A stretch of 37,390 nt of DNA from Terriglobales bacterium (GCA_035454605.1 DATIGQ010000048.1:1-37390); one strand, 5' to 3'; positions 18,198 through 37,390 are shown, counted from the first letter of the stretch. Notes: generated by a model not told the origin, from the sequence alone. Made by a program: numbers and translations.

Positions 18198-18239
18198 AGG
18201 ATAGGAGAGTCCCGTGAACCGGGCCGTGACTCGCGTCAC
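18198..18239 (-). promoter_or_regulatory. CRP-type site and class II promoter of ric
   Basis: GTGAC-TCGC-GTCAC (18226-18239) is a perfect 5+5 palindrome, centre 18232.5; read on the minus strand it extends to TGTGAC. If the site is centred at -41.5, transcription starts at 18191 and the -10 hexamer must be 18198-18203. That hexamer reads TATCCT on the minus strand (four of six consensus bases). The message would begin right at the GGAGG ribosome-binding site. Confidence 0.65.
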
Positions 18240-18289: not shown

Positions 18290-18739
18290 CTATCTCCGGT
18301 GCAGGTTGCGGACGCGGTCGTAGGCGGCGTCGAGGTCGGTAGTAAGGAGGCCGACCACCTGCAGGCAGGCCTCAGGGTGGCCTTCCAAGTAGTCGAGAAA
18401 CTCCTGGCGCGGGAAGAATGCGGCCTCCACCGGCGACAGCGCGCGGGCGCTGACCTCATGGGGGCGGCCGGAGAGTACGGCGCTCAGGCCCAGCATTTCC
18501 CCCGGTCCGGCGACTTCCAGCAGGAGCGTCTTGCCCCGGGGCGAAGAAACGGAGAGCTTCACTCGCCCGGAGCGCACCAGCAGGGCGCCGTCGGCCACGT
18601 GGCCTTCCTCGAACAGAATGGCGCCTTCGGGGTAGCGGCGCACCTGCCGGGTCCCATTCAGGTCGCGCCAAGGGTCGGCGGAGCCAGCGGCTCCGTAGGC
18701 GCCAGCGAAAGCGCGGTCGGCATGCAGGGTGTGTGACAT
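18290..18739 (-). CDS. CRP-like cyclic-nucleotide-binding-fold protein without a DNA-binding domain
   Basis: A 149-residue protein. Residues 35-130 are a clear CRP/FNR sensor beta-roll (YPEGAILFEEGHVADGALLVRSGRVKLSV, GKTLLLEVAGPGEMLGLSAVLSGRPHEVSA), closely related to the full-length regulator at 18929-19642. The C-terminal helix stops at RVRNLHRR, equivalent to the start of the linker in the paralogue, so the roughly 75-residue winged helix is absent. Only 51 bases lie between its stop codon and the CRP-type palindrome of ric, and no frame there encodes a helix-turn-helix. It could pair with the full-length regulator, act as a separate sensor, or be a deletion remnant. The conserved beta-roll and its own CRP-type site favour function. 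Confidence 0.8.
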   Translation of the reverse strand: MSHTLHADRAFAGAYGAAGSADPWRDLNGTRQVRRYPEGAILFEEGHVADGALLVRSGRVKLSVSSPRGKTLLLEVAGPGEMLGLSAVLSGRPHEVSARALSPVEAAFFPRQEFLDYLEGHPEACLQVVGLLTTDLDAAYDRVRNLHRR

Positions 18740-18759: not shown

Positions 18760-18802
18760 TTCATATCGTCTTGCTATGGGTGAACGCTGTGACTTAAGTC
18801 AC
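18760..18802 (-). promoter_or_regulatory. CRP-type site upstream of the truncated CRP-like gene
   Basis: GTGAC-TTAA-GTCAC (18789-18802) is a fully symmetric 14-base palindrome, centre 18795.5. On the minus strand TATGAA (18760-18765) is a possible -10, which puts the centre near -42.5. Transcription would start about 14 bases before the ATG at 18739. An isolated half-site GTGAC is also present at 18811-18815. Confidence 0.6.
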
Positions 18803-18928: not shown

Positions 18929-19642
18929 TCAGGCGCCAACTAGGCTTTCGAGGGCGGAGCGGTCGCGGATAGTCACGGTCGCGCCGCGGACGTCGATGAA
19001 CTTACGCTTCTTGAGGTCCGCGAAAGCGCGGGTGACGGTCTCGCGCGAGGTGCCGATCATCTGCGCGATCTCCTCGTGGGTAAGCGTGACCTTCACCTTA
19101 TGGCCTCGGCCCGAGTTCTCGCTGGACGCCCACTCCAGCAGCAGGCGGGCCAGCTTCTCCGAAGCGGACTGCGAAAGGCCCAGGGTCCGGATCTCTTGGT
19201 AGGCGGTGTGGTAATTCTGGCTGAGTTGCTGGGCCACGCGCAGGGCGGCATCGCCGTGCTTGCGCAGAAAGTTGAGGAACTCGTCGCGGCGAATGAAGTT
19301 GACCTGAGTGGGCTCGAGCAGCTCGACCGTCGCTTCGTAGGGCTTGCCGGAGACGGTACTGCTCAGGCCCAGCACTTCGCCCGGTTCGACGATTTTGAGG
19401 ATCAGCGTCTTGCCCTCGGCCGAGGAAGCCGTGAGCTTGGCGCGGCCCTGGCACAGGATGAACACGCCGCGCGGGTTCTGCCCCTCCACATACAAGACCG
19501 CGCCCGCAGGATAGGAAGCGGTGGAGCGGATGGCTTCCAGTTCCTTGACTGCCACCGGAGAGAGATTGCAGAAAAGCCGCTTCTCCCTGAGTTCACAGGT
19601 CAGGCAACTATCCAGGATCTGGAGGCCGTAGGGCGTGCGCAT
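18929..19642 (-). CDS. CRP/FNR-family transcription regulator
   Basis: A 237-residue protein. The sensor beta-roll spans about 40-140, the dimer helix about 140-170, and the winged helix about 180-230. The recognition helix is GTSRETVTRAF: Arg200, Glu201 and Arg205 match CRP residues R180, E181 and R185, which read TGTGA half-sites. The N-terminus has Cys13, Cys16 and Cys25, and Cys64 lies in the beta-roll; an FNR-like Fe-S cluster is possible, though the spacing differs from E. coli FNR. Start at 19642: a TATATT box (19660-19665) lies just upstream, so the longer start at 19672 would precede the promoter. It is the best candidate to bind the palindromes in this window. Confidence 0.9.
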   Translation of the reverse strand: MRTPYGLQILDSCLTCELREKRLFCNLSPVAVKELEAIRSTASYPAGAVLYVEGQNPRGVFILCQGRAKLTASSAEGKTLILKIVEPGEVLGLSSTVSGKPYEATVELLEPTQVNFIRRDEFLNFLRKHGDAALRVAQQLSQNYHTAYQEIRTLGLSQSASEKLARLLLEWASSENSGRGHKVKVTLTHEEIAQMIGTSRETVTRAFADLKKRKFIDVRGATVTIRDRSALESLVGA

Positions 19643-19693
19643 GGCGACTGCCTCAATCGAATATATCACCAATGCGTGTGATGCCGCAGTGCG

Positions 19694-20005
19694 TTAGCCC
19701 TTGGGTTCGGCCTGGTCGGCGATCCAGGTGAGCGCACGCATGCCGGCGGGAAACCCCATGGTGGTGATGGACAGCAGAGCCACGTGACGGAGTTCCTCGG
19801 GCTTGATGCCGGTGGCCAGCGCGTTGCGCACCGCCGAGTGCGCGGCACCTTCAAGTCCGGCCCCGATGGCCAGCGCCAGCTTGATGAGGCGGCGCGTCTT
19901 GTCGTCCAGGGGACCGGCGTGGTGGCAGCGGTCGCCCAACTCGGTGAACGCCTTCCAGACCTCGGGGTAGTCCTTCTTCAACTGCTCAAACTGCGAGGGC
20001 AGCAT
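19694..20005 (-). CDS. Carboxymuconolactone decarboxylase / AhpD-like protein without the redox cysteines
   Basis: A 103-residue protein of the CMD/AhpD fold: FTELGDRCHHAGPLDDKTRRLIKLALAIGAGLEGAAHSAVRNALATGIKPEELRHVALLSITTMGFP. The CxxC motif of peroxidase-type AhpD is replaced by LEGAAH, keeping the Glu and His positions but no cysteine pair. Alkylperoxide reduction by a CxxC mechanism is therefore unlikely. It ends the leftward molybdoenzyme operon, 78 bases after the NrfD gene. Start at 20005 is preferred (AAAGGA upstream). The function is unknown; small CMD proteins often accompany redox operons. Confidence 0.8.
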   Translation of the reverse strand: MLPSQFEQLKKDYPEVWKAFTELGDRCHHAGPLDDKTRRLIKLALAIGAGLEGAAHSAVRNALATGIKPEELRHVALLSITTMGFPAGMRALTWIADQAEPKG

Positions 20006-20083
20006 GGCTTGTTCCTTTCGCTGGGATGTCACACCCGTGGCGGGCAAGGTACCACAGGCGAAGGTCCGGAAGCAGCCGCAGCG

Positions 20084-20980
20084 TCAGGAGCTGCGAAAAG
20101 CGGGCGCGGTCTGGGGGGAGAACAGGCCCGATTTCAGCAACACCATGAGGAGCGCATAGTCGCCGGTGAGTTCGCAGGTGGCGATCAGGACGGCGAGCCA
20201 GGTCGCAGGCACACGGCTGTGGATGACGGCGAGCAGCAACGTGGCCACCAGTCCGAGGGCGAGCACCAGGCCGAGGAAGAAGCGGGCATACCGGCCAACC
20301 ACCAGCATGCGCACGGTTTCCCGGGCCGCAGGCGACCAGTCCCACATGTGAGCCAGGTACATGGCCAGCAACACCAGGTTCGTGACCAGCAGGATGTACT
20401 CGAACTGCACGAGAAGTGCCGGAGCGGTTTCGCCCTGCCCCGTGAGTTCCCGCAAGGTGAGGGAAAGCGTGGTCCCACCGAGCGCGGCATAGGTCAGGCA
20501 GAGCAGCGGCAGCATGCCGGTATTCCAGAACGGAATGGCGCGCGACGAGTTCATGACAAAGCCGTCGTAGAACATGATGAACAGGGCGGCCAAGCCGGCC
20601 AGCCAGGCGATTGCCGGGGCGGGTTGCCAGCCCAGGGCGAGATAGCGTGGCAGGAGCAGCACCGCCCCGGTCACGCCGAAGATGCCGGTGGCCCAGATGC
20701 CGCGGGCGATCCAGGAGCGGTCGGGGCGCATGGCGGCGCGCCAGAAGCGCGCGGGACGTCCCAAGTACATCAAGTGGGCGGTGTTCTTGCCCACCATCAC
20801 GATGAGATAGCCCACTAGCAATCCCAGAGCATGGCCGGTGATCAGCGAGACCAGGAACAGGCCGGCGCCAATCTCTCCGAAGAAGAAGGCGGTGCCGATG
20901 AGCCAGTTCCACCAGCTCTGCCGGTAGTAGCCGTAGCCGAAGCGGTGCGGAGCAATGGCAATGGAAGGTTGTGCGCTCAT
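20084..20980 (-). CDS. NrfD/PsrC-type membrane quinone-interacting subunit
   Basis: A 298-residue integral membrane protein with about eight hydrophobic segments. It shows NrfD-family features: WWNWLIGTAFFFGEIGAGLFLVSL near the N-terminus, HLMYLGRPARFWRAAMRPDRSWIARGIW (the conserved cytoplasmic loop), and FYDGFVMNSSRAIPFWNTGMLPLL. NrfD-like subunits exchange electrons with menaquinone or ubiquinone and anchor a ferredoxin-like plus a molybdoenzyme subunit (CISM complexes such as Psr, Phs, Ttr, Soe). It starts 12 bases after the four-cluster subunit gene, so the two are co-translated. Confidence 0.9.
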   Translation of the reverse strand: MSAQPSIAIAPHRFGYGYYRQSWWNWLIGTAFFFGEIGAGLFLVSLITGHALGLLVGYLIVMVGKNTAHLMYLGRPARFWRAAMRPDRSWIARGIWATGIFGVTGAVLLLPRYLALGWQPAPAIAWLAGLAALFIMFYDGFVMNSSRAIPFWNTGMLPLLCLTYAALGGTTLSLTLRELTGQGETAPALLVQFEYILLVTNLVLLAMYLAHMWDWSPAARETVRMLVVGRYARFFLGLVLALGLVATLLLAVIHSRVPATWLAVLIATCELTGDYALLMVLLKSGLFSPQTAPAFRSS

Positions 20981-20992
20981 GGTTCCCTCACT

Positions 20993-21607
20993 CTATTCGT
21001 CCAGGTAGTACACACTGGGTTTGGTTTCGGCCTCGGGCAGCAGCGTCCAGCCGTTGCGTTCACGAATCAAACGCCGCAGGCGACCGTCTTGTTGCTCCAA
21101 GTCGCCAAAGATGCGGGCCTCGGTCGGACAGGTGACTACGCAAGCGGGCTCCAGACCCTGGTCCACGCGAGGTGCGCAGAGCGTGCACTTGGTCATGGTG
21201 CCTTCTTCGAACTCCGTGAACTTCACCGCTTCCATGGGGCTCACGCCGTCGCCGCTGTAGCCATGCTCCAGCAGGCCGCGCTCGATGTAGTGCCGGTTCA
21301 TGTAAGGGCAGGCCACGGCGCAGGCGCGGCAGCCGATGCAGACGTCCTTGTCCACCATGACGATGCCGTCGGCACGGATATGTGTGGCGCCGCTGGGACA
21401 GGCCTGGGCACAAGGCGCGTCCTCGCAGTGGTTGCACAGCACGGGCAGGAAGGTGCGCCGGGTCTGCGGGTAGGTACCCACTTCGCGGGTGATGACGCGA
21501 GCGAAGTGGACACCGGCGGGCGTCCCGTTCTCCTGCTTGCAGGCTACGGTGCAAGCGTTGCAGCCGATGCAGCGCTTGAGGTCGATCACCATTCCCAGTC
21601 TGGCCAT
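20993..21607 (-). CDS. Four-cluster ferredoxin subunit of a CISM oxidoreductase (PsrB/TtrB-like)
   Basis: A 204-residue protein with 16 cysteines in four clusters. CIGCNACTVACKQENG is near residue 13, CNHCEDAPCAQACP near 58, CIGCRACAVACPYMNR near 90, and CTLCAPRVDQGLEPACVVTCPTEA near 141. This is the standard electron-wire subunit between a molybdopterin catalytic subunit and an NrfD membrane subunit. GGGAGGA precedes the ATG. It has no Tat signal, like its catalytic partner, so the complex probably faces the cytoplasm. Confidence 0.93.
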   Translation of the reverse strand: MARLGMVIDLKRCIGCNACTVACKQENGTPAGVHFARVITREVGTYPQTRRTFLPVLCNHCEDAPCAQACPSGATHIRADGIVMVDKDVCIGCRACAVACPYMNRHYIERGLLEHGYSGDGVSPMEAVKFTEFEEGTMTKCTLCAPRVDQGLEPACVVTCPTEARIFGDLEQQDGRLRRLIRERNGWTLLPEAETKPSVYYLDE

Positions 21608-21620
21608 ACGTTCCTCCCGG

Positions 21621-21908
21621 TTAGCCGCCGTGCAGATGGCGCAGGATCGCCATGGTCACAACCTGCTCGCCGCCCTGCAGCGGGCGTTCGAGCTGGTCGG
21701 GTTTGAGGCTGAAGCCGTCCACCAGGACGGCGAAATCGCCACGCAGCCTGCCTTCGCAGGTGAGGTTGGCATAGAGGTTGCTCCCGTCGGTGGTGGCGAG
21801 TGAACGAAGCAGGTCCGCCACGGTGCCCTGCTCGAAGGGGACGGTGCGCTTGGAGAAGCCAAGCAGCTTGCGCGCCGTGCCCAGCGCGGCGACATCAATC
21901 GTGGGCAT
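21621..21908 (-). CDS. MoaD/ThiS-like ubiquitin-fold protein ending in Gly-Gly
   Basis: A 95-residue protein: MPTIDVAALGTARKLLGF, a beta-grasp middle (FAVLVDGFSLKPDQLERPLQGGEQV) and the C-terminus HLHGG. The terminal Gly-Gly and the layout match MoaD/ThiS sulfur carriers, which are adenylated and thiocarboxylated at that end. It overlaps the molybdoenzyme gene by 14 bases and precedes the Fe-S subunit gene by 13. AGGAGG lies before the ATG at 21908; the longer frame to 21983 would run further into the upstream gene. It may be a dedicated molybdopterin-synthase small subunit or another sulfur carrier. No MoaE, MoeB or ThiF gene is in the window. Confidence 0.8.
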   Translation of the reverse strand: MPTIDVAALGTARKLLGFSKRTVPFEQGTVADLLRSLATTDGSNLYANLTCEGRLRGDFAVLVDGFSLKPDQLERPLQGGEQVVTMAILRHLHGG

Positions 21909-24432
21909 GGCGAGCCTCCTGCCCCCACTTGGGAGCAATCTCCAAACGTACACGTGCGGTGGATTCCAGGCCGCCGGTGGCATTGTCGGTGTAGCGCATG
22001 GAGCCGGTAAGCAACCGGTTGAAGTGGCTGCCCTTCACACGCACCTCACGATTGGTGACGAACTCGCGGGTGATGGCGTTGCTGACTCCCAGCACCTGCG
22101 GGTGGATGCCTTCGACCACCTGGGCCACGCCCTCGATCCAGCTTGCCGGCGAAGTGAGGCGGATGCGGGTCCCGGTGCGAATGCCGAACTTGGCCGCGGT
22201 CTGGGCGTTGATCAGGATGCCTCCGTGCACCGCGTCCTTCTCGCTGACCTCGGTGAGCCAGGGCATCACCATGGTGTCGGCGAAGGTGTGCAGCACCTCC
22301 TTGAAGGTGATGGCGTAGAAGGGATAGCCGCGGGCGCCGTCCTCGATGACCGGCGACGGTTTCCAGAAGGGCAGGGACTTGTAGTTGTCGAACGGCCAAT
22401 CCTTGATGCCGGCCTCTTCCATCTTCTTGCGCAGGTCTTCGCCCGTGCGCTGGATGAACTCGAAGTAGAAAGGCACGCGCAGATTGCCGTATGGCATGAA
22501 GGTCTCATCGGCGGTGCGAGGACGGACGGCGTGGCCGTTCTGCTTGAACCATTCCAGGCCGCGGTCGTCGCCATAGATGGAGCGCGCGTAGCGGTCCCAA
22601 AGTTCCTCGACGCTGTAGCGCTGCTCGGGGTCGAGCAGGTATTGCGGCTTCTGGGTGAAGCCGCAGACCACGTTGAGCAGGTCGTTCCAGTCGTCGCGGA
22701 AGCCCAGGCGCTCCGCCAGTTCGGTGAGGATCTCGTAGGCGTCCTTGGTGTCACCCAGCGGCTGGACCACGGGCTGGCGCACGGAGTGCCCGGTCACGAC
22801 CGGCGGCTCCAGGCAATTCAGCAGTGTGGACTCCAGGAACGTCTGGTCGGGCAGGAAGATGTCGGCCCACTCGGTAGATTCAGTGCGGTGGATGTCGATA
22901 GCGACCACGAACTTCATGCGACGCATGATCCGCTCCACCTTGTCTGTCTCGGGCATGTTCCACAGCGGGTTGGAGTGATACAGCAGCATGGCCTCGGGGT
23001 GGTACTGCAGGCCGAACCGCTCCGGCTCCAGCAAGGTTTCGGTATTGAGCTGGCCGGCGTCGAAGCCGATGGGGAACCACTCCATCAGGTGCGTCGAGTC
23101 CGGCGGGTACTTGAACGGCGGGGCCGGGTGGAGCTGATGCGGCTCCGGCTTCAGCATGCCGTCCTCGCCCGGGCTGACGAAGAAACCGCGATGGTCCAGC
23201 GGCACGCCCAGGTGGCCTCCCGGGACATCCAGATTGCCCACCAGCATGTTGAACATTTTGTAGGTCAGGTTGTCGAACAGGCCGTTGGCGTGCGATTGCG
23301 AGCCGCGGTAGTAGTTGAGCGCCGCCGGGCGGAAGGGATACGTCTTGCCTTCGATCTCGATGGTCGAGCCGATCTGGGCCGCGTCCACGAACTCGCGGGC
23401 GATGCGGCGGATGGTAGCCGCCGGCACGGTGGTGACCTCGCTCATGCGCTCGGGGGTGTAGTTCACCAGGATGTTCTTCCAGAGTTGAAAGCCGGTGCGA
23501 TAGCGACGGCCATCCACCAGGAACACCCCTTCGAGCGTCATGGCTTCCGGAGGAACAAAGTCCCAGGCTGCGGGGGCGCCGATGCGCGTGTCCCAGACCT
23601 GGGCCTTGCCGTCCTCGCCGCGGAAAAGGTGGCCATCGTCCTGCACCAGATACGGCGCGTTCGTGCGGTCGCGCAGGAATTCGCGGTCGAAGCGGTTCAG
23701 TTCGTGAATCAGCACGTGCGCCATGCCCAGCACAAAGGCGCGGTCCGTGCCCGGCAGAATGGGAACCCACTCGTTGGCCTTGGCGGCCGCCACCGAGTTG
23801 CGCGGGTCGAGCACTACCAGCCTCATGCCGCGCATGCGGGCGTCGGCCATGCGCTTGGAGCTGCCGGAAACGTGCAGGTGTGAGGAGAAACCGTCGCCGG
23901 AGCCGATCTGGATCCAGTAGTTGCAGCGCTCGTAGTCGTTGATGGCGGCGAAAGAACCATCCACGGATCCGTTGACCGGGTGGTAGGAGCCGCCGCAGTA
24001 GTTCCCCAGCGAGGTGAAGAAATTGGGCGAGCCGAACACTGCCGGCCATCCCCAGAGCAGGATGCGCTGAAAGTCACCGATGGCGCACAGCAGCTTGCGC
24101 GGGTCGTCGGCGCGGATCTTGCCCAGTTCGCGGGCGGTGATCTCGAAGGCTTCTTCCCAGGAGATCTTGACCCAGCCGGGATCCTCGCCCGGTCCCTTTT
24201 TGGGATTGGTGCGCTTCATGGGGTGAAGGACGCGCGCCGAGTCATAAAGGCGCGACAACCCGGCGTTGCCCTTGGGACACAGCTTGCCGAGGTTGTCGGG
24301 ATTGGTGGGGTCGCCCTCGATCTTGAGCGCGACACCGTCCTTCACCAGCACCTTGATGCCGCAGCCGTGCAGACACATGCCGCAAGTGCTGGGAACCCAG
24401 TTGCCCTGATATGCAGAAGCCGAGGTTGCCAT
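21895..24432 (-). CDS. Molybdopterin oxidoreductase catalytic subunit (Psr/Phs/Soe-like)
   Basis: An 845-residue protein of the DMSO-reductase family. An N-terminal [4Fe-4S] site is formed by Cys17, Cys20, Cys24 and Cys52 (CGMCLHGC, then GKLCPKGNAG). The molybdenum ligand is probably Cys146 in FGSPNFFTSLGNYCGGS, as in Cys-ligated NapA/PsrA/PhsA-type enzymes. Later motifs include PGTDRAFVLGMAHVL, FNMLVGNLDVPGGHLG, STEWADIFLPDQTFLES and the C-terminal guanine-dinucleotide domain. No twin-arginine signal is visible, even in the longer frame from 24513, so it is probably cytoplasmic, as in SoeA. Start at 24432 has GGGAGAAG upstream. The substrate (sulfur oxyanion, polysulfide or other) cannot be decided. 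Confidence 0.9.
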   Translation of the reverse strand: MATSASAYQGNWVPSTCGMCLHGCGIKVLVKDGVALKIEGDPTNPDNLGKLCPKGNAGLSRLYDSARVLHPMKRTNPKKGPGEDPGWVKISWEEAFEITARELGKIRADDPRKLLCAIGDFQRILLWGWPAVFGSPNFFTSLGNYCGGSYHPVNGSVDGSFAAINDYERCNYWIQIGSGDGFSSHLHVSGSSKRMADARMRGMRLVVLDPRNSVAAAKANEWVPILPGTDRAFVLGMAHVLIHELNRFDREFLRDRTNAPYLVQDDGHLFRGEDGKAQVWDTRIGAPAAWDFVPPEAMTLEGVFLVDGRRYRTGFQLWKNILVNYTPERMSEVTTVPAATIRRIAREFVDAAQIGSTIEIEGKTYPFRPAALNYYRGSQSHANGLFDNLTYKMFNMLVGNLDVPGGHLGVPLDHRGFFVSPGEDGMLKPEPHQLHPAPPFKYPPDSTHLMEWFPIGFDAGQLNTETLLEPERFGLQYHPEAMLLYHSNPLWNMPETDKVERIMRRMKFVVAIDIHRTESTEWADIFLPDQTFLESTLLNCLEPPVVTGHSVRQPVVQPLGDTKDAYEILTELAERLGFRDDWNDLLNVVCGFTQKPQYLLDPEQRYSVEELWDRYARSIYGDDRGLEWFKQNGHAVRPRTADETFMPYGNLRVPFYFEFIQRTGEDLRKKMEEAGIKDWPFDNYKSLPFWKPSPVIEDGARGYPFYAITFKEVLHTFADTMVMPWLTEVSEKDAVHGGILINAQTAAKFGIRTGTRIRLTSPASWIEGVAQVVEGIHPQVLGVSNAITREFVTNREVRVKGSHFNRLLTGSMRYTDNATGGLESTARVRLEIAPKWGQEARHAHD

Positions 24433-24535: not shown

Positions 24536-24577
24536 TTTATAAAAGCGCGGGTCGCAGGAGGCTGTGACTAATGTCAC
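24536..24577 (-). promoter_or_regulatory. CRP-type class II promoter of the molybdoenzyme operon
   Basis: GTGAC-TAAT-GTCAC (24564-24577) is a perfect 5+5 palindrome, centre 24570.5. On the minus strand TATAAA (24536-24541) is a five-of-six -10 hexamer. Taking it as -12 to -7 places +1 at 24529 and the palindrome centre exactly at -41.5, the class II activator position of CRP and FNR. The leader to the ATG at 24432 is about 97 bases. A further half-site GTGAC lies at 24585-24589. Confidence 0.75.
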
Positions 24578-25193: not shown

Positions 25194-25235
25194 ATTCGAC
25201 CACCGGAACGTACGAGCGTCTGTGATTGGTGTCAC
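25194..25235 (-). promoter_or_regulatory. CRP-type site and promoter of the nine-cysteine protein gene
   Basis: GTGAT-TGGT-GTCAC (25222-25235) is centred at 25228.5. A centre at -41.5 predicts +1 at 25187 and a -10 at 25194-25199, which reads TCGAAT on the minus strand (four of six). It shares the divergent 199-base intergenic region with the two sites of the 2-oxoacid oxidoreductase gene. Confidence 0.55.
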
Positions 25236-25368: not shown

Positions 25369-28300
25369 ATGTCGCTGCTGAAGGAAGTCATCCTCCCACG
25401 ACCCCCATCCCCCAAAACAGAGCCGCCTTACCCGGGCATTCGCACGACCGCGGATGGCTCGGGAGCGGTGGTTTGGGTGGAGTCGCACATCTCCCAGGGG
25501 GCATGCGCCTATCCCATCACCCCCTCCACCCCCATGGGGGACGGATTCGCCCAGGAATTCGCCAACGGCACCAAGAACCTTTGGAATGAGCCCCTGCAGT
25601 TTCTGGAGCCCGAGTCCGAGCACAGCTCGGCGACGGCTTGCGAGGGCTTTGCGCTGGCGGGCGGGCGGGTGGCCAATTTCACCTCCGGCCAGGGCCTGAT
25701 CCTCATGAAGGAGGTGTTGTACGTCATCGCCGGGAAGCGACTGCCGGTCGTGTTCCACATCGGAGCGCGGGCGTTGACTTCGCATTCGTTGAATGTGCAC
25801 TGCGGGCACGACGACGTCATGGGCGTGGCCGATTGCGGCTGGGGCATGCTCTTCGGGCGTAACGCCCAGGAAGCCGCCGACCTGGCCTTGATCGCGCGCC
25901 GCGTCGCGGAAGCCAGCGAGACTCCCTTCCTGAACGTGCAGGACGGTTTCCTTACCACGCACACCCTGGAGACCGTGAACCTGCCTGAGCCGGAACTGAT
26001 GCGCGAGTTCGTGGGCGCGCCGGCAACGCGCGTACGCAATCTCTTCGACCCGCTGCATCCGCTGCTGAGCGGCCCGGTACAGAACCAGGACAGCTACATG
26101 AAGGGCAAGGTGGCACAGCGCTCCTTCTACGAACGGGTGGCTCCGGAGCTGGCTGCGGCCATGCGTGAGTACTCGAACCTGACGGGACGCGAGTACGGGT
26201 TCGTCCAGCCCTACCGCATGGACGACGCGGAGTACGCGCTGGTCGGCATGGGCTCGATGATGGAGACCGCCGAAGCCACCGTCGATCACCTGCGGAGCCG
26301 CGGGCTGCGTGTGGGAGCGATCACCGTGGTCAGCTTTCGTCCTTTTCCCGCCCGCGAACTCGCCGAACTGCTCTTCCCATGCAGCGCCTTTGCCGTGATC
26401 GAGCGCGCCGACATTCCGCTGGCGGAATCCAATCCCCTCACCGCGGAGATCAAGGCGGCCTTGGCAGACGCGCAGATGGGCGCCGGTGAATTCGCCCGCC
26501 TGCCCATGCCCTTGGCTTATTCCGGCGTCGCCGGACTGGGGGGCCGCGACATCCGTCCGGGACATTTTGTGGCTGCCGTCGAAGCCATGGTCGAACGCGA
26601 CCCGCGCCGCCGCTTCGTGCTGGGTGTCAGGCATCCGGATGCGCTGGAAGTGACCGCCGACCCGGACGTGCGACCGGCGGGTTCGTACTCGTTGCGTGGC
26701 CACTCCGTCGGCGGCTTCGGATCGGTGACCACGAACAAGGTGCTGGCCTCGGTAGCCTCCGAGCTTTTTGGGGTGTATGCACAGGCTTTCCCCAAGTACG
26801 GCTCGGAGAAAAAGGGTCTGCCGACCAACTATTTCCTCACCCTGGCCAACCAGCCCATCCGGCTGCACGCCGAGCTGAACACGGTGGAGTTCGTCGCCAT
26901 CCAGGACCAGAACGCGTTCCTGAACTCGGACCCGTTGGCGGGATTGCAGAGGGGCGGCACAGTGCTGGTGCAGTCCAGCCTTCCGCCGGATGAAGTGTGG
27001 CGCTGGTTGCCGGCGGAGACACGCCGCACCATCCGTGAGCGCGGACTGAAGCTCTACGCGCTGGACGCGCTGCGCATCGCGCGCGAATCCGCCAGCCGCG
27101 CTGACCTGCAGGTGCGCATGCAGGGCATCGTGCTGCTGGGCGCATTTCTGCGCCTGACGCCGTTCCGCGAGGACGCCGGGCTGACCGAGGAACAATTGAT
27201 CACCGCACTGCGCCGCCCAATGGAAAAATACTTCGGCAAGCGGGGCGAGAAAGTGGTGGCCGACAACCTGGCGGCAGCCAGCCGCGGATATCGCGAAGTG
27301 GTCGAAGTCGTGCCTCCGGCAGAAGACAAGGAAACCGCCGCCGCCGCGCTTCCCGTGCATCACCCCCAGTGGCGCTGCCCGTCCGCGCCGGACGTGGTGG
27401 CGCCCGAGTTCTGTGACCGCGTGGTAGCCGGCTACAACCGCGGGCGCGAGCAGGATCTGGAAGCCGATGAGTACGTGGCGCGCAGTTTCATGCCGCCCTC
27501 CAGCGCCGTCCTGCGCAGTTTCCGTAACCTGGCGCCGGAGATTCCCGTGCTGACCGCCGCGAACTGCGTGGGCTGCATGGACTGCGTCAACCAGTGTCCG
27601 GACACGGCCATCCTGGCCAAGGCAGTGCTGCCGTCCGCATTGGAGGAAAAGCTGGCGCGGGTGGAACGTCCGGACCTGCGCAGCGATTTGCGCGCCCGCT
27701 TCGTCCAGACCAGCAAGTACTTCGAGCTGCCGCAGAAGCGCGGCGAGCAAGGCGGCCTGTTCGCCATCTTCGTCGATCCCGACAAGTGCAAGGGATGCGG
27801 GGAGTGCGTCGTGGCCTGCGGCTCGCACGACGCCCTGCGCATGTCACCCAAGCAGGACCTCGCGATCGAGTCCTACGATCTGGCGATGGACCTCTACCAC
27901 GCGCTGCCGGAGACGCCCGCACGCTTGCTCAACGAGAAGGCGCTGGGCGACATGATGCTGGCCTCGCGCGCGCTGCTCTACGCCGGCGGCGCGGGTTCCT
28001 GCATGGGATGCGGCGAAGCCACGGCTCTGCGGCTGATGCTGGCCGCCACGGGTTTCGTGTACGGAGCGGACCAGATCGGCATCGTGGCGGCCACCGGCTG
28101 CAACACGGTGTACGGCTCCACCTACCCGTTCAATCCGTTCGCCGTTCCCTGGACCAACTCGTTGTTTGAGAACGCTCCCGCAGACGCCATGGGCGTCCGC
28201 CTGCGCTGGGACCAGGAAGGTCATCACAAGCGTCGCTTGTGGGTAGTGGGCGGGGATGGCGCCATGTTCGATATCGGATTGCAATCCCTCTCGCGCATGC

Positions 28301-28926
28301 TGAGCTCCGGCATGGACATCAAGGTGCTGGTGCTCGACACCCAGGTCTACTCCAACACCGGCGGGCAGACTTCGACGGCGACCTTCACCAGCCAGGACGC
28401 CAAGATGGCGGCCGTGGGCAAAGCACAGCCGGGCAAGCGGGAGCGTCGCAAGGAACTGGCGCAGGTGTTGCTGGCGCATCCCAACGTGTTCGTCGCCCAG
28501 AGTACGCCCGCCCACTTGAATCATTTCTACAAAGCGGTGATGGCGGCGAACGAGTTTCCCGGTCCGGCCGTGGTGATTGCCTACGCCACCTGCCAGCCGG
28601 AGCACGGTGTGCCGGACGATCAGGCTATGACCCACGCCAAGATGGCGGTGGAATCGCGTGCCTTCCCGCTGCTGATGCATGACCCGCGCAGTGGCGAGCG
28701 CATTCGCGAGCGGTTAAGCCTGCGCGGCAATCCGGCCATGAAGGAAGACTGGCCCACGGACCCCAAGACGGATCAGCCGTTCAACTTTGTGAGTTTCGCG
28801 CGTACCGAGGGCCGCTTTGCGCGTCACTTCGACGCCGAAGGCCGGCCCGATGAACAACTTTTACTGGCGCAGCAGGACCGGCTGGAGAACTGGCGTCGGC
28901 TGCAAGAGATGGCCGGGCTGCGCTGA
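25369..28926 (+). CDS. Pyruvate:ferredoxin (flavodoxin)-type 2-oxoacid oxidoreductase, single chain
   Basis: An 1185-residue protein, the usual length of one-chain PFOR/NifJ. Domain I has ACAYPITPSTPMG, then the transketolase-like core (GFALAGGRVANFTSGQGL). The gamma-like domain is at about 400-620. A two-cluster ferredoxin domain follows, with CVGCMDCVNQCP near 734 and CKGCGECVVACG near 807. A further Cys pair is in SCMGCGEA near 880. The thiamine-diphosphate site is GDGAMFDIGLQSLSRML with NTGGQ near 962-1000. It oxidatively decarboxylates pyruvate (or another 2-oxoacid) to an acyl-CoA and reduces ferredoxin or flavodoxin; the [4Fe-4S] clusters are usually oxygen-sensitive. The ATG at 25369 has GGAG upstream. 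The next gene, a universal stress protein, begins 12 bases later. Confidence 0.92.
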   Translation: MSLLKEVILPRPPSPKTEPPYPGIRTTADGSGAVVWVESHISQGACAYPITPSTPMGDGFAQEFANGTKNLWNEPLQFLEPESEHSSATACEGFALAGGRVANFTSGQGLILMKEVLYVIAGKRLPVVFHIGARALTSHSLNVHCGHDDVMGVADCGWGMLFGRNAQEAADLALIARRVAEASETPFLNVQDGFLTTHTLETVNLPEPELMREFVGAPATRVRNLFDPLHPLLSGPVQNQDSYMKGKVAQRSFYERVAPELAAAMREYSNLTGREYGFVQPYRMDDAEYALVGMGSMMETAEATVDHLRSRGLRVGAITVVSFRPFPARELAELLFPCSAFAVIERADIPLAESNPLTAEIKAALADAQMGAGEFARLPMPLAYSGVAGLGGRDIRPGHFVAAVEAMVERDPRRRFVLGVRHPDALEVTADPDVRPAGSYSLRGHSVGGFGSVTTNKVLASVASELFGVYAQAFPKYGSEKKGLPTNYFLTLANQPIRLHAELNTVEFVAIQDQNAFLNSDPLAGLQRGGTVLVQSSLPPDEVWRWLPAETRRTIRERGLKLYALDALRIARESASRADLQVRMQGIVLLGAFLRLTPFREDAGLTEEQLITALRRPMEKYFGKRGEKVVADNLAAASRGYREVVEVVPPAEDKETAAAALPVHHPQWRCPSAPDVVAPEFCDRVVAGYNRGREQDLEADEYVARSFMPPSSAVLRSFRNLAPEIPVLTAANCVGCMDCVNQCPDTAILAKAVLPSALEEKLARVERPDLRSDLRARFVQTSKYFELPQKRGEQGGLFAIFVDPDKCKGCGECVVACGSHDALRMSPKQDLAIESYDLAMDLYHALPETPARLLNEKALGDMMLASRALLYAGGAGSCMGCGEATALRLMLAATGFVYGADQIGIVAATGCNTVYGSTYPFNPFAVPWTNSLFENAPADAMGVRLRWDQEGHHKRRLWVVGGDGAMFDIGLQSLSRMLSSGMDIKVLVLDTQVYSNTGGQTSTATFTSQDAKMAAVGKAQPGKRERRKELAQVLLAHPNVFVAQSTPAHLNHFYKAVMAANEFPGPAVVIAYATCQPEHGVPDDQAMTHAKMAVESRAFPLLMHDPRSGERIRERLSLRGNPAMKEDWPTDPKTDQPFNFVSFARTEGRFARHFDAEGRPDEQLLLAQQDRLENWRRLQEMAGLR

Positions 28927-35232: not shown

Positions 35233-35274
35233 ACCCTATCACCGCGCCCGGAATGGCGGCGTGATGGCAGTCAC
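35233..35274 (-). promoter_or_regulatory. CRP-type site of the phosphoribosyltransferase operon
   Basis: GTGAT-GGCA-GTCAC (35261-35274), centre 35267.5. The -41.5 rule puts +1 at 35226 and the -10 at 35233-35238, which reads TAGGGT on the minus strand (three of six, weak). The leader to the ATG at 35203 would be about 23 bases and contains the GGAGG ribosome-binding site. A second palindrome lies exactly 22 bases to the right. Confidence 0.5.
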
Positions 35275-36746: not shown

Positions 36747-37390
36747 CTGGACGCGATCGCCGTCATCCCGGCGCGACTGGCCTCTACCCGGCTGCCGCGC
36801 AAGGTGCTGCGCGCGGTGGCGGGACGGCCGCTGCTGGCCTGGGTGGTGGAGGCGGCGCGCGCCTGCCGGGGCCTGCGAGAAGTCATTGTGGCGACGGACT
36901 CCGAGGAAGTGCTGGCCCTGTGCCGTACCCAAGGATGGACGGGGCGCATGACCTCGGCGAAGCATCGGTCGGGCACCGAGCGCGTGCACGAAGTGGCGCA
37001 TGCGGTGGCGGCCGACGTCTACGTCAACGTCCAGGGTGACGAGCCGTTATTACAACCCGCACACATCGACCTGCTGCTCGCTACCATGCGCGACCCGAAG
37101 GTGCTGGTGGCGACGCTGAAGACGCCGTGCGCTGCGGCGGACATCAACAATCCCAATGCTGTGAAGGTGGTCACCGATCTCGCGGGGCGGGCGCTCTATT
37201 TTTCCCGCTCCCCGGTTCCGCACGACCGCGACGCCTCGGGAGCCGTCCGCTACTTCAAGCACCTGGGGGTCTATGCCTACCGGCGCGCGGCGCTCGACCG
37301 CTTCTGCGCGTTGCCAGAGTCGCCGCTGGAACGCGGCGAGCGCCTGGAGCAGTTGCGCTTCCTCGAAAACGACATCCCCATCCAGGTCGC
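36747..37390 (+). CDS. kdsB: 3-deoxy-manno-octulosonate cytidylyltransferase (partial, noncanonical start)
   Basis: The gene runs off the window; 214 codons are visible. It activates KDO as CMP-KDO for lipid A/LPS core synthesis. Signatures are AVIPARLASTRLPRKVL (nucleotide binding, right at the N-terminus), IVATDSEEV, HRSGTERVHEV, VNVQGDEPLL, NPNAVKVV, ALYFSRSPVPHDR, FKHLGVYAYRR and SPLERGERLEQLRFLEN, all in the usual order. Between the in-frame stop (36720) and the conserved IPAR motif there is no ATG, GTG or TTG. The start must be CTG (36747, best spaced from GGAGGA) or ATT (36744), unless there is a sequencing error. It shows the host makes KDO-type LPS. Confidence 0.9.
   Translation, partial: MDAIAVIPARLASTRLPRKVLRAVAGRPLLAWVVEAARACRGLREVIVATDSEEVLALCRTQGWTGRMTSAKHRSGTERVHEVAHAVAADVYVNVQGDEPLLQPAHIDLLLATMRDPKVLVATLKTPCAAADINNPNAVKVVTDLAGRALYFSRSPVPHDRDASGAVRYFKHLGVYAYRRAALDRFCALPESPLERGERLEQLRFLENDIPIQV

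Follow-up and report, generated by a model that had tools for sequence, protein, structure and literature searches.

To our knowledge, descriptions of PadBCD are limited to few organisms, for the most part anaerobes that are proteobacterial or Gram-positive; Thauera aromatica, Azoarcus evansii and Aromatoleum aromaticum are among those that possess it. PadBCD oxidizes phenylacetyl-CoA, and the phenylglyoxylate formed is turned into benzoyl-CoA by PadEFGHI (PMC5109826), and the T. aromatica enzyme is referred to as a membrane-bound Mo-Fe-S enzyme (Rhee and Fuchs 1999, as cited in PMC9765128). Its three-subunit layout recurs in other complex iron-sulfur molybdoenzymes (CISM), such as the cytoplasm-facing sulfite:quinone oxidoreductase SoeABC and, within the DMSO-reductase superfamily, the Arx/Arr, Psr/Phs and Ttr enzymes, which combine four-cluster and NrfD-type subunits. 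Here we describe an operon at positions 19694 to 24432 of a 37,390-nucleotide contig (C48; DATIGQ010000048.1, hereafter the window) from a Terriglobales genome (GCA_035454605.1) of 3.29 Mb that is 98% complete. We think it fairly likely that this operon encodes a PadBCD-type arylacetyl-CoA:quinone oxidoreductase acting on phenylacetyl-CoA or a very close arylacetyl-CoA, because its catalytic subunit is 47% identical to a molybdo-subunit linked to padEFGHI and falls with it in a clade supported at 100/100.

The catalytic subunit groups with PadB

We obtained a PadB reference by searching 399 Burkholderiales genomes for PadG, a subunit of phenylglyoxylate dehydrogenase, which gave three positives. 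In one of them (locus L064) each of padE, F, G, H and I scores over its NCBIfam equivalog cut-off (321/300, 150.3/150, 762/700, 644/475 and 833/700, respectively), and the genes directly behind them encode a molybdo-subunit, its four-cluster partner and a membrane subunit; the other two (G636 and G390) have no close PadB. The catalytic subunit of the window is 47.4% identical to that of L064 over 837 aa, and the two partner subunits also have counterparts there (Table 1).

A maximum-likelihood tree was built from 38 sequences, with L064, named by its padEFGHI context, as the sole PadB reference. The window protein, its close homologues and L064 make up a group of 12 supported at 100/100, and SoeA, ArxA, PhsA, DmsA and NapA lie outside it. 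In the alignment, PadB and the clade share 295 invariant positions, of which 78 are found in none of the outgroup references; these 78 take in much of the CGGxYHPxNG motif of the ligand region. Identity to the window protein falls to 31-40% for a paralogue group of Acidobacteriota, 29% for Sporomusa, 27.8% for SoeA (L049, which adjoins xsc), 26.9% for ArxA from an arx-like cluster and about 24% for PhsA. Placements with SoeA, ArxA, PhsA, NapA and DmsA were rejected by tree and identity. TtrA, ArrA and PsrA were compared by curated model scores only. The catalytic subunit reached none of the curated NCBIfam models (PhsA, 263 of 694 bits; ArrA, 170 of 1600), and a sequence search returned no close solved structure, the best match being ArrA at 160 bits. 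A sequence-only reading of this DNA had left the substrate unknown within a sulfur-compound frame and had proposed a phylogeny as the check; that phylogeny, run with SoeA, ArxA, PhsA and NapA, puts the window protein beside PadB and counts against that frame.

One more distant relative, at L073:9640-14844, has its PadB-like domain inside a 1734-aa open frame, perhaps a fusion.

The complex appears to face the cytoplasm

The N-terminus of the catalytic subunit carries a CxxCxxxC...C motif for a 4Fe-4S cluster, and the metal-ligand position is Cys146 in GNYCGGSYHPVNG, which aligns with FCGGGYHPMNG of PadB. Exactly 16 Cys were counted in the Fe-S subunit. The operon has the three-subunit PadBCD layout of a subunit with molybdenum-bis(pyranopterin guanine dinucleotide) (Mo-bisPGD) and a 4Fe-4S cluster, a four-cluster ferredoxin and an NrfD-type anchor. 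No twin-arginine translocation (Tat) signal was found in the window catalytic protein or in its 10 close homologues, and it is likewise missing from the PadB of L064 and the Soe-type set of L049. This places the catalytic subunit on the cytoplasmic side, as a CoA substrate requires. The earlier description of a cytoplasm-facing CISM set with a Cys ligand, four-cluster and NrfD subunits and no visible Tat signal is thus borne out.

The same layout and lack of a Tat signal would also suit a cytoplasmic sulfite dehydrogenase of the SoeABC type, or a sulfur enzyme related to it, the direction in which the sequence-only reading leaned. We regard this as very unlikely, however, given the low identity to SoeA and its position outside the strongly supported clade. 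No sulfur-oxidation genes were seen around the homologues in listings read by eye, with no dedicated search, and no sulfonate or sulfite gene such as xsc was seen beside the window operon. A respiratory reductase for thiosulfate, polysulfide, tetrathionate or arsenate that has lost its export would account for the distant resemblance to the PhsA and ArrA models, but every curated cut-off is missed widely, and the PhsA and ArxA references bear Tat signals and fall outside the clade; we find this scarcely credible. Sulfur or arsenic chemistry of any kind is, in our judgment, improbable.

Operon organization and the MoaD-like gene

The gene set, order and coordinates of the sequence-only reading were correct: starting from the catalytic gene, with its ATG at 24432, genes for the MoaD-like, 4Fe-4S, NrfD-type and CMD/AhpD-like proteins follow, all on the minus strand, and the last ends at 19694 (Table 1). 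The Pfam domains of the operon proteins are Molybdopterin, Fe4S4 and molydop-binding for the catalytic subunit, and the 4Fe-4S subunit, NrfD and CMD domains for the others.

Table 1. Features of the window and of related loci (L numbers).
Feature	Position	Strand	Basis
Catalytic Mo(W)-bisPGD subunit, PadB homologue, 845 aa	21895..24432	-	ATG at 24432; Pfam, tree, ligand alignment
MoaD/ThiS-like ubiquitin-fold protein, 95-96 aa, Gly-Gly end	21621..21908 (96-codon frame, 21911-21621)	-	profile, fold model
Electron-transfer subunit, 204 aa, four 4Fe-4S clusters (16 Cys), PadC homologue	20993..21607	-	Pfam; 57.8% identity to L064
NrfD/DmsC-type membrane subunit, PadD homologue, probable quinone site	20084..20980	-	Pfam; 36.7% identity to L064
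CMD/AhpD-family protein without CxxC, probably incidental	19694..20005	-	Pfam; not kept with operon
CRP-type palindrome GTGACTAATGTCAC upstream of operon	24564..24577	.	pattern scan; equivalent in 5/10 homologous loci
CRP/FNR-family regulator directly downstream of operon, helix SRETVTR	18929..19672	-	Pfam
Cyclic-nucleotide-binding-domain protein that lacks a DNA-binding domain; gene closely follows that of the full CRP-type regulator	18290-18739
PFOR-type 2-oxoacid oxidoreductase, divergent from operon	25369..28926	+	profile scores
Amidohydro_2 copies	L101:14396-15352, L104:5296-6180, L106:6262-7191, L107:5592-6485, L018:2722-3573

One scan of 84,980 genomes gave 10 close homologous loci at 78-82% identity, all in metagenome-assembled genomes (MAGs) of Acidobacteriota. 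The catalytic, Fe-S and NrfD genes occur together in all 10, and the MoaD-like gene is kept in nine, being missing in L015, so its membership of the operon, as first proposed, is real and conserved. Among 297 sampled Acidobacteriota genomes, 15 match the catalytic subunit at E <= 1e-50; because most of these do so at only 34-41% identity, the close clade is sparse within the phylum.

The small protein combines a ubiquitin-like fold with a C-terminal Gly-Gly, as expected of MoaD. Its AlphaFold model (predicted local distance difference test, pLDDT, 89) matches the structures of SAMP1, Urm1 and MoaD, and the Gly-Gly tail is invariant in the nine homologues and the window copy. The ThiS profile (PF02597) is matched by 9/10 members of the family, at best with 5e-7; the window copy, at 0.0016, is just under the cut-off. 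To judge from fold and tail, the protein is probably a dedicated sulfur carrier for pterin cofactor synthesis. The tungsten aldehyde oxidoreductase operon AorABC of A. aromaticum carries MoaD-like genes too (PMC6365974), likewise beside a Mo/W enzyme of aromatic acid metabolism, but its catalytic family is unrelated and it serves only as a precedent for dedicated MoaD-like genes. At L068:7181-7606 a small MoaD-like protein, recognized by eye and lacking the Gly-Gly end, directly precedes the catalytic gene of a 36-38% relative.

The CMD/AhpD-like gene fared differently. It had been counted as part of the operon and its product called cysteine-free, which is wrong: there is a single Cys, and what is missing is the CxxC pair. 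None of the 10 homologous loci has a CMD gene next to the operon, and membership in the complex was rejected on that ground; the gene is probably incidental. L014, from an Acidipila MAG, does carry a CMD relative, on the opposite strand and about 1.4 kb upstream of the operon. The region upstream of that operon (L014:1-6224) also holds genes resembling StyA-type flavin monooxygenases, recognized by eye, and an aldehyde dehydrogenase-like gene.

Benzoyl-CoA reductase-type genes in the clade genomes

We looked for benzoyl-CoA genes because the route through PadBCD and PadEFGHI ends in benzoyl-CoA. HGD-D genes, of the benzoyl-CoA reductase (BCR) B/C type, are present in 10/11 close-clade genomes. 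They occur in 77/297 sampled Acidobacteriota, namely in 13/15 genomes with a PadB-like gene versus 64/282 (23%) without (one-sided Fisher test, 7e-7, a significance overstated by the counting of related genomes as independent). Contig C170 of the window genome carries a BcrC-like gene (354 bits, cut-off 421), a BcrB-like gene (308 of 487) and two activase/BcrA-D-like genes, together with a BadH-like short-chain dehydrogenase/reductase and an amidohydrolase. In L018 about 5.6 kb separate the molybdoenzyme genes from a BcrC that exceeds its cut-off (507 of 421), and in G299 BCR genes stand beside genes for OAH (6-oxocyclohexenecarbonyl-CoA hydrolase) and Had, both over their cut-offs.

More distant PadB-like loci (L067-L074) repeatedly adjoin CaiB-type CoA-transferases, named by eye from translations, and L069 and L070 have BCR-like or OAH/Had/Dch-like neighbors, also by eye and with no profile search. 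These neighbors are the reason why the wider PadB-like family looks tied to CoA-thioester and aromatic metabolism. L069, L070, L071 and L074 form a second PadB-like group, 32-36% identical to the window protein, beside CaiB-type CoA-transferases and dearomatization genes.

Several observations weigh against the assignment to PadBCD. The PadB reference with pad context comes from a single Burkholderiales genome, in whose pad cluster B and C are not separated by a MoaD gene, and 47% identity across a deep split is insufficient to fix the substrate. No padEFGHI genes lie beside the operon in any of the clade loci, although this linkage is the usual context of PadBCD and not a property of the enzyme. 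One clade genome (G302, a MAG) has no HGD-D genes, and the BCR-like subunits of the window genome are all below the equivalog cut-offs. Searches of the window genome found no OAH, no CoA ligase over the PaaK cut-off (best 262 against 646) and nothing PadG-like beyond the pyruvate:ferredoxin oxidoreductase (PFOR)-type gene of the window and a gene on C188 that, from its 614-aa frame, appears to be of KorA type. Given these gaps in OAH, PadG and PaaK, the exact substrate and the reactions leading to and from the enzyme in the window genome are putative. In the ten homologue genomes, too, no PadG scored over the cut-off.

Some of the same observations would fit a PadB-family enzyme with the same water-dependent, quinone-linked mechanism but another CoA thioester, either a different arylacetyl-CoA or a ring-reduced acyl-CoA of the benzoyl-CoA pathway. 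The absence of padEFGHI and PadG speaks for it, as do the clade's own conserved MoaD gene and the relatives at 32-41% identity, whose CaiB-type and dearomatization neighbors make several CoA esters probable in the wider family. On the other hand, the nearest lineage with a known context is PadB itself, and the ligand-region motif is common to PadB and the clade but not to other relatives. We consider such a substrate possible, if on the unlikely side, and favor phenylacetyl-CoA or a very close arylacetyl-CoA.

With that substrate, the window PFOR would be a candidate, unproven, for phenylglyoxylate decarboxylation, because it is the only non-KorA POR_N gene found in the window genome. On the pyruvate enzyme model its score is 572 of 911, and it shares only 27-31% identity with the PFORs of the other genomes.

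An Amidohydro_2 protein, 74-84% conserved, accompanies BCR-like genes in five genomes without OAH (Table 1) and is absent from the BCR loci read in two OAH-bearing genomes (L103 and L105); it may stand in for OAH at the ring-opening step. A bolder proposal, that the clade is a distinct acidobacterial PadB branch with its own cofactor-sulfuration protein, another CoA thioester as substrate, a non-standard benzoyl-CoA pathway downstream that has Amidohydro_2 in place of OAH, and CRP-type low-oxygen control, seems to us doubtful.

The window genome (G000) also has, on contig C74 (L102:1279-7875), a cluster beside CoA ligase genes whose best matches, below cut-off, are ApcA, C and D of acetophenone carboxylase.

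CRP-type sites in the window

CRP recognizes GTGA half-sites. Matches to GTGACNNNNGTCAC with at most one mismatch number 11 in the window versus 1.45 expected (0/100 shuffles). There are eight exact GTGA-N6-TCAC palindromes. The one at 24564 precedes the operon, those at 25222 and 25292 the PFOR gene, that at 18789 the gene for the cyclic-nucleotide-binding-domain protein, that at 18226 an ScdA/hemerythrin-type gene, and those at 35261 and 35283 a gene for a universal stress protein; the eighth is at 37161. In 6/11 loci, versus 0.03 expected, the 200 bp in front of the catalytic gene contain the GTGA-N6-TCAC core; the maximum in 5000 base-composition shuffles was 1. From their pattern, these sites likely mark a CRP-type regulon, and the regulator downstream of the operon, whose recognition helix is CRP-like, is a candidate for binding them. 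FNR-type boxes (TTGAT-N4-ATCAA) were not enriched. A link of the operon to low oxygen or NO, suggested earlier, gains some support from the sites shared with the ScdA-type, PFOR-type and universal stress genes, though not from FNR boxes; a stress or low-oxygen link is plausible.

Proposed mechanism and significance

We propose that the PadB homologue, with Mo- or W-bisPGD and a Cys ligand, works facing the cytoplasm, the compartment that holds CoA thioesters. The alpha-CH2 group beside the thioester would be oxidized with water to the alpha-keto level, giving phenylglyoxylyl-CoA and then phenylglyoxylate, which is most likely the product from phenylacetyl-CoA. Electrons would leave through the enzyme's own cluster, cross the four clusters of its PadC-like partner and reach quinone at the PadD homologue, the NrfD-type subunit, and the MoaD-like protein, through its Gly-Gly end, would probably supply sulfur for the pterin cofactor. 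The product would enter a putative benzoyl-CoA reductase pathway encoded elsewhere in the genome, and a CRP-family regulator may turn the operon on together with other low-oxygen and stress genes.

The best reading of the operon is a PadBCD type from Acidobacteriota that has a MoaD-like protein of its own, a known kind of enzyme in a new variant. It is like PadBCD in layout, Cys ligand motif, clade, lack of a Tat signal and BCR-type genes in the genomes; unlike PadBCD, it has no padEFGHI nearby, a conserved MoaD-like gene that separates those for the catalytic and Fe-S subunits, a CRP-type control site and an acidobacterial host. Best profile matches by themselves would have led to annotation as a thiosulfate or arsenate reductase or a generic molybdopterin oxidoreductase. 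The host, a soil acidobacterium, probably oxidizes aromatic acids without oxygen rather than handling sulfur compounds. The conserved PadB-like branch in Acidobacteriota of soil, peat and groundwater, alongside benzoyl-CoA-reductase-type genes, suggests aromatic-acid degradation without oxygen in an abundant, poorly cultured phylum, a capacity relevant to the turnover of carbon in anoxic soils.

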